Positions 44,308-53,521 of a DNA stretch of 64,000 nt are shown here, in pieces. The position numbers and the translations under genes were made by a program. Each line of letters begins with the position of its first letter. Position 1 is the stretch's first letter. The notes below the pieces were generated by a model. That model did no database searches and was not told where the DNA came from. It worked only from the letters and a program-made list of their open reading frames with translations. Source of the stretch: Phycisphaerales bacterium (GTDB lineage: Bacteria > Planctomycetota > Phycisphaerae > Sedimentisphaerales > Anaerobacaceae); NCBI GenBank assembly GCA_003141275.1, contig PLLM01000009.1, positions 1-64,000 of the forward strand. Reading direction: 5' to 3'.

Positions 44308-44322
44308 CGGCTTATTGAAAAA

Positions 44323-45422
44323 ACGGTAGCTGTCCCCGGTTCGGTTAGGGTTACACAGGAGACGACATCAAAAGATAAATTTGCCGAGGGGGCTTAAAGG
44401 ACTATTCACTGGCGAATAATTTGCATTGCCTTTGGCGATAATTGGGGGGATAATAATTTAATAGAAATGAAAACACTTTAAGTTGAAAGACCCCTAAGAA
44501 AGCCTAAAAATGAAACAAGAAAATAACTCGTGGGGAAAGCAAATCAAAGAAGGTTTTCTAATTGAAGAATTAAATTCATGGGAAGGTTTCGTAGAATTTG
44601 TCAAAGATGAAAAGAGATGTTGGGCTACTCAGATTTTCCGAGGGCAGGCGAATGCTAAATGGACACTATTATCGAGATTAGATCGCCTTGAAAAAAAGTA
44701 TAACAAAAAGCCGAATCTAAGCGGGAATAATCCTGAAGAGTTCAGTTGTCCACGAGTCGATCGCGATATTCATTTGAACCGATTCAAAGAACTTGCCCTT
44801 GATAAAATTAACAAAGATGTTAAAAATGATGATGTGTTGTGGGCCGTAGCGCAACATCATGGCTTAGCCACGCCTTTATTAGATTTTACATATTCGCCGT
44901 TTGTCGCATTATTTTTTGCTTTTGAAGAAGAGAAGTGCTGGTGTGAGGAAAATAATATTACAGTATTTAAAGAACCTCGCGAGCGAGCGGTATTTGCATT
45001 AACTCATCATCTTGTAGAAGAGTTGATACAGCCATTCTCAGTAGCAGGTTATGGAATTTATCGAGCAGCTAGTCAGGCTGGATTATTTTTAAATATGCCC
45101 CAAAAAGATTATCCTGATAAATGGGATCTGGAATCTTATATCCAGGAAAAAGGTAAGAATGAGACATGCAAACAACATACAAACAGATTGATTCTGAAAA
45201 AATTTATAATCCCAAATAAAGAAAGAATTGAGTGTTTAAGGTTCTTAGACCAAATGAACATTAACCGTGCGACACTTTTCCCTGACCTTGATGGTGTAGC
45301 AAAATATGTAAATGATTTATGGGAAATTAACTTTGACAAAGCGCTTGGGTATATTAAGCAATTATAATAACCCAAGCAAGGGGGTTAAATAGAGGTTAAA
45401 TAGGGACAGCCATCCATTATTT
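44323..45422. mobile_element. candidate cassette with inverted GGGACAGC-type ends carrying an FRG-domain gene
   Basis: left acggtagctgtccccggtt (44323-44341), right ggttaaatagggacagccatccattattt (45394-45422); AT-rich interior. Confidence 0.5.
44510..45367 (+). CDS. FRG-domain protein
   Basis: 285 aa; QIFRGQANAKWTLLSRLDRL, WAVAQHHGLATPLLDFTYSPFVALFFAFEE. Confidence 0.88.
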   Translation: MKQENNSWGKQIKEGFLIEELNSWEGFVEFVKDEKRCWATQIFRGQANAKWTLLSRLDRLEKKYNKKPNLSGNNPEEFSCPRVDRDIHLNRFKELALDKINKDVKNDDVLWAVAQHHGLATPLLDFTYSPFVALFFAFEEEKCWCEENNITVFKEPRERAVFALTHHLVEELIQPFSVAGYGIYRAASQAGLFLNMPQKDYPDKWDLESYIQEKGKNETCKQHTNRLILKKFIIPNKERIECLRFLDQMNINRATLFPDLDGVAKYVNDLWEINFDKALGYIKQL

Positions 45423-51658: not shown

Positions 51659-52078
51659 ATGATTCGGATAACCGATGAGACGGTCATCAGCGAGGGCGAT
51701 ATTGTTTACAGATTCTCCCGAAGCGCCGGTCCCGGCGGGCAGAACGTCAACAAGGTCAATAGCCGCGTTACGCTTCTTTTCGATATAAACAAGAGCCGGG
51801 GCCTGACGGCTGAACAAAAGCAGCGCCTGTTTGACCGGCTTTCATCGCGAATTTCAGATGATGGATTTTTGACGGTTGTCTCGCAGAGGCACAGGACCCA
51901 GAGCGCAAACCGTAAGTCAGCACAAAACCGTCTTGTTGAGTTGCTCAAATTCGCCTTGAGAGATATACCTGTTAGAAAGGAAACCGGCGTCCCGCACGGC
52001 GAAAAACGGAAACGCCTGCTCCGCAAACGCCGCCGAAGTGAGATTAAACAGATGAGAAAATCCGTCGCTTTTGACTAA
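51659..52078 (+). CDS. arfB: peptidyl-tRNA hydrolase ArfB
   Basis: FSRSAGPGGQNVNKVNSRVTLLFDI (GGQ) and basic C-terminal tail. Confidence 0.93.
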   Translation: MIRITDETVISEGDIVYRFSRSAGPGGQNVNKVNSRVTLLFDINKSRGLTAEQKQRLFDRLSSRISDDGFLTVVSQRHRTQSANRKSAQNRLVELLKFALRDIPVRKETGVPHGEKRKRLLRKRRRSEIKQMRKSVAFD

Positions 52079-52086
52079 ACTGTTTA

Positions 52087-52581
52087 GAATAATAGGTGGC
52101 CGTCCCTATTTATTCTTTGCAGAAAACTTGCTGACACGACAGGAATAACACCTCAGCTCGCGCCTTGCCAGAATAAAACCGAAACTCGAAGTGCGAGTTC
52201 TTGTTGGCACTACATATAACCTCTTGAATATCAGAATAATCAATTCCCTCCGTTTGTTTGAAAGTAAAACAGTCCGTTGTCTTGAAATCAAACACAACCA
52301 CCTGGTCTTTCTTCGCCCCTTTGTAGCTGTTAAGCAAGAGTTCAACTTCAATGTCACAGTAAACAGCATCCTTCATGTCACCGAAGGGGTATACTAGGTT
52401 GCCATCCTCATTAAAGGCCCTATCTTTCACAAAGCTAATCCTTTTGAGACTCCCGTCATGGCAATGGCATAGCCGAGAAAGGATGCCATTCACCTCTTTC
52501 ACTGTCTTTGGTGCAGATATCTTCATTTTATGATACACCTCATTTCTTTATTAGAATAAATAGGGACAGCCGCCTATTATT
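52087..52581. mobile_element. candidate ~495-bp cassette with 29-bp terminal inverted repeats, single orphan ORF, no transposase
   Basis: left gaataataggtggccgtccctatttattctt (52087-52117) versus right agaataaatagggacagccgcctattatt (52553-52581), 27/29 matched as inverted repeat. Confidence 0.75.
52110..52538 (-). CDS. uncharacterised 142-aa protein
   Basis: LCHCHDGSLKRISFVKDRAF...DIEVELLLNSYKGAKKDQVVVFDFKTTDCFTFKQTEGIDYSDIQEVI; stop codon lies inside the left inverted repeat. Confidence 0.65.
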   Translation of the reverse strand: MYHKMKISAPKTVKEVNGILSRLCHCHDGSLKRISFVKDRAFNEDGNLVYPFGDMKDAVYCDIEVELLLNSYKGAKKDQVVVFDFKTTDCFTFKQTEGIDYSDIQEVICSANKNSHFEFRFYSGKARAEVLFLSCQQVFCKE

Positions 52582-52597: not shown

Positions 52598-53521
52598 TTA
52601 TTTTACCGAATCGTCCATCGGCATACCGAGTTGTTTGTAGATGCCCTGTCTTGCGGCCTTGTCCTTTTCCAGTATCACTTTTGCGTATTCGGCGACTTCT
52701 TTTGCCTTTGCCCTCGGGACGACCACGACGCCCTCGCCGTCGGCGACGATGATGTCGCCCGGCTCAACCAATGCGCCGCCGCAAACTACGGGACGGTTCA
52801 CTGATTCTAATTCGTTTCTGCCCGGCCTGATTCCCCTGCCCACTTTCTTGAGATACAGCGGCATCTTTTCTGTTATGATTTCATCGGTATCACGCGATGT
52901 GTTGCTTGTAACCACACCGATGCATCCGGCCATTTTCCAGACCATTATGTTGTTGGACCCGATGGAGCCGGTGTCGCCGTCGCCGGATTCTTCTATGACC
53001 AGAACGGTCCCCTTGCGGATAAGAGGTATAAACGGCTCGCCGGAAAAATTGGTGTACCAGTTGTCTCTCCATTCATCGTAGGGCTTTGCCTCCATCGCCG
53101 GCGCCTGAGGTTTGTTCGTTGGGACGTACCTCGCCGTAACCGCTATGCCCTGAATGCGATGCGTATAATGCTCCGTATCTTTCCACAAGGGGTGGATATC
53201 GGGCGACATCGTTCCTATGTTCTTCAAGCCGACTTTATCCATTCCGTCCACAACGTCTGCCACGCGCAACCCTTTATACAGATTCAGCATCTCTTCGTCT
53301 TCCTGTGCGCTGTAAACCTTTGTCGCGATGTAATTTTTGCCCGCCTTCAATTCTTCGATACTGGGTTTTACCGCCTTTGGAGGGTTCGCACCTGCGGGCG
53401 GCGCGGCGTTGACGGCCTTGTTTGGCTCAGCGGTTATCGCCGTATTCGAGCATGAAGCACAGGCCAGAACCATAAACAACGATAAAACCGAAATCATCAC
53501 CTTCGATTGCCCGGTTTTCAT
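52598..53521 (-). CDS. RraA-family (demethylmenaquinone methyltransferase-like fold) protein with lipoprotein signal
   Basis: VISVLSLFMVLAC signal/lipobox; VADVVDGMDKVGL, GDTGSIGSNNIMVWKMAGCIGVVTSNTSRDTDEI, PVVCGGALVEPGDIIVADGEGVVVVPR. Confidence 0.85.
   Translation of the reverse strand: MKTGQSKVMISVLSLFMVLACASCSNTAITAEPNKAVNAAPPAGANPPKAVKPSIEELKAGKNYIATKVYSAQEDEEMLNLYKGLRVADVVDGMDKVGLKNIGTMSPDIHPLWKDTEHYTHRIQGIAVTARYVPTNKPQAPAMEAKPYDEWRDNWYTNFSGEPFIPLIRKGTVLVIEESGDGDTGSIGSNNIMVWKMAGCIGVVTSNTSRDTDEIITEKMPLYLKKVGRGIRPGRNELESVNRPVVCGGALVEPGDIIVADGEGVVVVPRAKAKEVAEYAKVILEKDKAARQGIYKQLGMPMDDSVK

Follow-up and report, generated by a model that had tools for sequence, protein, structure and literature searches.

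Gene content and structure of the arfB-RraA gap

The window, by which we mean the whole 64-kb stretch of DNA that was analysed, belongs to a planctomycete MAG (G000; 3.05 Mb in 104 contigs, 92% complete), and the genomes with which it was compared are MAGs as well. In this genome two convergent resident genes, arfB-like and RraA-like, are separated by a 0.5-kb stretch that contains one ORF inside an inverted repeat. The insert has a GC content of 41.8%, against 49.7% for the window as a whole, and the features of the region are the following:

51659..52078, plus strand: arfB-like resident gene (RF-1 domain), whose 3' side borders the insertion on the left
52088..52116, minus strand: left end hairpin, assigned to the TIRYT type (see below), with its TAGGG side toward the gene and the orphan stop codon inside
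52110..52526, minus strand: orphan ORF of no known family, 138 aa from ATG 52526 or 142 aa from GTG 52538
52553..52581, plus strand: right end hairpin, an inverted copy, with its TAGGG side toward the gene
52598..53521, minus strand: RraA-like resident gene, convergent with arfB, with its stop at 52598; upstream of the orphan and on the same strand

An earlier sequence-only reading of this DNA had described an inverted repeat matching at 27 of 29 positions around a single ORF, the stop codon of which would lie inside the repeat. This description is correct: the two arms (52088-52116 and 52553-52581) are 29 nt long, match at 27 of 29 positions (93% complementary) and lie 436 nt apart, and the ORF, which spans 52110-52538 on the minus strand when read from the GTG, ends within the left arm. 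A degenerate 27-mer matches the two arms and nothing else in the window, and gives no match in 100 shuffles. The same reading took the arms for the 29-bp inverted ends of an element; the repeat is indeed real, but either arm on its own forms an imperfect palindrome, AGAATA(A)ATAGG-GACGGCCA-CCTATTATTCT, with a one-base bulge, so that the structure is a pair of inverted hairpins and not one of plain terminal repeats. The pair points outwards, the TAGGG sides of both hairpins facing the orphan gene.

When folding is compared with that of shuffled sequences, the left arm performs better than almost all of them and the right arm only modestly better. No Rfam family was found for the hairpins, and no clear terminator is present at them. 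The two window copies have a longer flank in common (AGAATAAA) than do most of the remaining copies of the repeat. Their cores are two positions apart from each other and each is one position away from the core of a copy on contig C24 of the same genome; that is, the likeness between the two window hairpins is no greater than that of each to the C24 copy.

The orphan gene

The ORF had been read as encoding a protein of 142 aa of no recognised kind. The length holds if translation begins at GTG 52538, but the ATG at 52526, which gives 138 aa, is the better start, because a GAGGTG lies 8 nt upstream of it and the sole distant homologue, in G056, starts at the same place. As to its kind, comparison with Pfam, NCBIfam, PHROGs and PADLOC gave nothing above threshold, so that the product is indeed unrecognised; the protein was not found in plasmid or phage records, and 60 relatives and 395 genomes of the phylum yielded none except the weak G056 match. 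Nor did the ORF turn up without the repeats in any of these genomes. An AlphaFold model, for which two sequences were used, is of low quality (mean pLDDT 40.5). With only about 15 bp between the hairpin and the ribosome-binding region, the gene probably lacks a promoter of its own and, as RraA lies upstream on the same strand, may be read through from RraA.

A second type of repeat, GGGGTCAGGAGYCGTTTTT and its variants, was observed beside orphan genes at L084:6648-6666 (G003), L089:8670-8688 (G000, contig C24) and L056:1361 (G056), the last of which adjoins the distant homologue of the window orphan.

The same gap in sister species

In G002, a genome of the same genus, arfB and RraA likewise converge, and their stops lie about 20-25 bp apart. 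In the congener G003 (RraA 86% identity) the gap is filled by 3.2 kb of unrelated genes, comprising a pseudopilin-like gene (PF07963), a repeat protein and a 238-aa orphan, behind which comes another repeat, distinct but similar in type, GGGGTCAGGAGTCGTTTTT. An empty site, for which the sequence-only reading had proposed to look, and other cargo at the same place are therefore found in relatives. At the left edge, the sequences of G000 and G003 cease to agree within about 1 bp of the start of the hairpin, and at the right edge the RraA stop is separated from the hairpin by 16 bp that are not shared with G003; both edges are set against G003, the empty gap of G002 being too diverged for a base-exact edge. 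A hairpin-gene-hairpin unit at another site was not found in the 60 relatives and 395 genomes of the phylum. Considering the gap of about 20 bp in G002, the other cargo in G003 and the lack of a close relative of the orphan, the gene and its hairpins look recently acquired, as a species-specific insertion at a hot spot between convergent genes.

Such an insertion could be what is left of a larger foreign stretch, introduced by homologous or illegitimate recombination from a hairpin-rich donor and followed by loss of the remainder, in which case the hairpins would be intergenic repeats of that donor. The 3.2 kb of foreign DNA at the same site in G003 are in line with this, as are genomes such as G045, where copies are numerous within and near AT-rich islands. 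We nevertheless consider this origin improbable, as only 16 bp of unexplained DNA lie outside the bracket and no close relative of the orphan was found in the genomes that carry the repeats. Homologous recombination between repeats was also considered as the source of the pair and discarded, since it would leave direct and not inverted copies.

A dispersed family of hairpins

Copies in G000 were located by pattern search, and the genome holds about five of them: the two arms, a third in the window at 45395-45418, and one each at C24:22638 and C6:24891. Under relaxed matching, copies occur in at least 94 of 162 genomes of the order (Sedimentisphaerales), whereas the reversed pattern, taken as a control, gives sporadic matches (0-1 per genome and strand). 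Exact copies are present also in MAGs of Fischerbacteria, Omnitrophota, Holophagales and Hydrogenedentes, and a search for the exact 24-mer across 85,462 species genomes returned only six loci, too few for a census of brackets. Clearly, the repeat is dispersed and not unique in its genome, uniqueness being what would have counted against the sequence-only reading.

The existence of this family bears on whether the inverted similarity of the two arms could have arisen by chance, with no shared origin. Both arms are AT-rich and partly self-complementary, and when the 2-kb region was shuffled 60 times by mononucleotide, its best match between inverted 29-mers was 25/29, against the 27 observed. 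However, the same 18-24-mer recurs in G000 and across the order, where the reversed control is so scarce, and the copy family already refutes a chance origin, the probability of which we take to be practically nil.

Two loci outside the source genome present other arrangements. In a Holophagales MAG (L149:107-1097) a gene of 43% GC is followed by an exact hairpin copy, the rest of the contig being near 65% GC. In G093 (L218:1260-3340) three direct hairpin copies lie between genes for secreted proteins, two of them with long identical flanks; these direct copies probably represent a tandem duplication including the hairpin.

Association of the hairpin with Y1 transposase genes

In relatives, 16 genes have the hairpin close by, and 11 of these have it at both ends, always pointing inward. 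The hairpin-flanked genes that were scanned match Y1_Tnp (PF01797); 15 of the 16 are 220-257 aa long and one reads 403 aa, and they carry NHVH/NHIH and LWQ motifs, together with a Y[IV]ExNP motif in 14 cases. The inverted repeats of TIRYT, the TIR-associated tyrosine transposases, share the motif GGGGWSAS (PMC3733652), and TIRYT correspond to subclass 2.1 of TnpA-REP, whose tabulated protein motifs (PMC6006769 Table 1) agree with those of the hairpin-flanked genes. This GGGGWSAS motif is found in the G045 copies as GGGGACAG, and the window hairpins read TAGGGACAG or TAGGGACGG, one base off the motif at its first G. That the ends are of TIRYT type, which is the TnpA-REP subclass 2.1 kind, is the firmest outcome of the analysis. 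The guess that they belong to a Y1/REP-type transposase was therefore right as far as the ends are concerned, given that the hairpin forms the ends of 16 Y1 genes in relatives.

Mini-elements made of two inward hairpins a short spacer apart are found in G045, L146 and L147. A matching trans-acting transposase in the source genome, which had also been envisaged, was not encountered: the 92% complete G000 yielded no TIRYT gene that would match, and the only Y1 gene found in it is divergent and cut by a contig end.

In G045 (L127:11700-13427, L128, L130, L131), arrays of AT-rich orphan genes are split by 48-bp double-hairpin mini-elements, near Rhs-like fragments. These arrays look like the outcome of successive mini-element insertions between tandem small genes.

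Relative ages of hairpins and genes at comparable sites

A 2.4-kb island that is absent from G003 has the C24 hairpin in its middle, away from its edges. Within the window, the segment 44308-45492 contains an AT-rich FRG-domain gene between hairpin-like repeats, and the resident genes on either side, which are convergent, encode an ABC permease and an Rce1-like protease:

44321..44338, minus strand: degenerate hairpin-like sequence with 3 mismatches, after the ABC permease gene; common to G003
44510..45367, plus strand: FRG-domain gene with a GC content of 36%, occupying the window's second re-filled gap between convergent genes
45395..45418, plus strand: third hairpin copy of the window, with 2 core mismatches, after the FRG-domain gene

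In other genomes this gap is closed (G002) or holds a subtilase gene (G001) or an exonuclease gene (G003); despite its other cargo, G003 has the left degenerate hairpin too. Where birA starts, G117 and G119 have a solo hairpin without the transposase and the 133-aa gene of G113, a genome in which an outward hairpin pair surrounds that 133-aa gene beside a TIRYT gene. At these three sites the hairpins thus differ in age from the genes, which suggests that the two have accumulated stepwise.

The nadC-birA junction (L114 in G113, L117 in G117, L153 in G121 and L228 in G119) is a hot spot whose variants comprise a solo hairpin, a TIRYT gene with the 133-aa gene, and a different Y1 gene with other ends; in L228 (G119) a hairpin is also present inside the birA reading frame.

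The AT-richer neighbour of a solo hairpin is found on its TAGGG side in 31 of 45 cases (p = 0.003), and in 25 of 37 (p = 0.013) when the window and G113 are left out and one case per locus is counted; we arrived at this measure of polarity once the data had been looked at, and genomes that are related do not count as independent, and it is to be taken as a lead only. It is conceivable, although we regard it as quite unlikely, that solo hairpins beside convergent resident genes act as gene-capture sites, at which promoterless foreign genes would be taken up, lost and swapped on the side of TAGGG. If true, this would amount to an integron-like role performed by a single-strand transposase.

How the gene and its hairpins may have arrived

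The origin that we favour, and to which we give about an even chance, is a stepwise accretion of solo Y1 ends of the TIRYT/RAYT type and of a foreign gene at a hot spot between convergent genes. A Y1 enzyme acting in trans would have inserted the hairpins as solo ends beside the 3' ends of genes, and the foreign gene and the hairpins would have accumulated in more than one step, and not as a cassette defined by the two repeats. This reading is preferred because the window pair points outwards whereas the transposase genes and mini-elements have inward hairpins, because the hairpins at C24, in the FRG gap and at birA differ in age from the genes, and because the window cores are no closer to each other than to the C24 core. 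The 16 Y1 genes of relatives that carry the hairpin, the empty gap in G002 and the other cargo in G003 are also in line with it. Counting against it are the left hairpin edge, which falls within about 1 bp of the point where G000 and G003 diverge, the fact that the bracket covers nearly all of the new DNA, and the long flank AGAATAAA common to both window copies.

That the left edge is exact and that the bracket takes in almost all of the new DNA are in fact points in favour of a single transposition, in which hairpin, gene and hairpin entered the arfB-RraA gap as one unit by means of a Y1 transposase in trans; we hold this to be a serious possibility, even if we lean against it. The empty site in G002, the outward pair around the 133-aa gene beside the TIRYT gene in G113 and the modest TAGGG-side tendency of the AT-richer neighbour also agree with it, and, since the hairpin is nearly palindromic, orientation may matter little. 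However, among the matches listed, transposase genes and mini-elements all have inward hairpins, no inward pair contains foreign cargo, and no other bracket of the same subtype surrounds a lone gene; the failure to find a TIRYT gene in G000 and the 16 unshared bp outside the right hairpin likewise speak against entry as one unit. The proposal of a mobile cassette mobilised in trans is thus sustained only in part: the Y1-type ends, the dispersed repeat, the empty or re-filled site and the failure to find the ORF elsewhere without the repeats agree with it, but the outward pair, the TIRYT gene not found in G000, the lack of a second clear lone-gene bracket among the matches listed and the neighbouring sites, which suggest stepwise build-up, do not.

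Comparison with known systems

The window ends resemble those of TIRtrons/TIRYT (PMC3733652; PMC6006769) in having the [G/A]GGGACAG form of GGGGWSAS and in that the repeats flank Y1 genes in relatives, but in the window they flank an unrelated orphan, their orientation is outward, and G000 yielded no TIRYT gene. With REP sequences, BIMEs and REPINs they share the character of short dispersed hairpins near the 3' ends of genes, which form inverted dimers in relatives; unlike these, the window hairpins have no GTAG or CGTC foot, as read in both arms, and their copy number in G000 is low.

As in mobile insertion cassettes (MICs) and cargo-bearing MITEs, a gene without a transposase lies between inverted transposon ends and an enzyme in trans would be needed. 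Both window ends match, as in MICs, the ends of an autonomous element, in this case that of the relatives and judged by sequence only, with the orientation reversed; this reversal relative to the autonomous element sets the window apart from MICs and cargo MITEs, and movement as a unit is putative. Integron gene cassettes are similar in that an apparently promoterless small gene adjoins a foldable site and the cargo varies at the place, whereas by reading neither hairpin has the GTTRRRY/RYYYAAC cores of attC, and the enzyme family associated with the hairpins is Y1 and not a tyrosine recombinase.

Cargo genes between Y1/TIRYT ends were not found in a literature search of incomplete coverage. 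Lone, recently acquired genes between TIRYT ends, with empty or re-filled sister sites, offer a test of whether the widespread TIRYT/RAYT enzymes move genes. Should the pairing be accidental, the case would still document a hairpin-forming TIRYT family in planctomycetes, as well as orphan-gene hot spots between convergent resident genes. In respect to the known systems, the ends belong to a known kind, and it is their outward geometry and their association with cargo that appear to be new.
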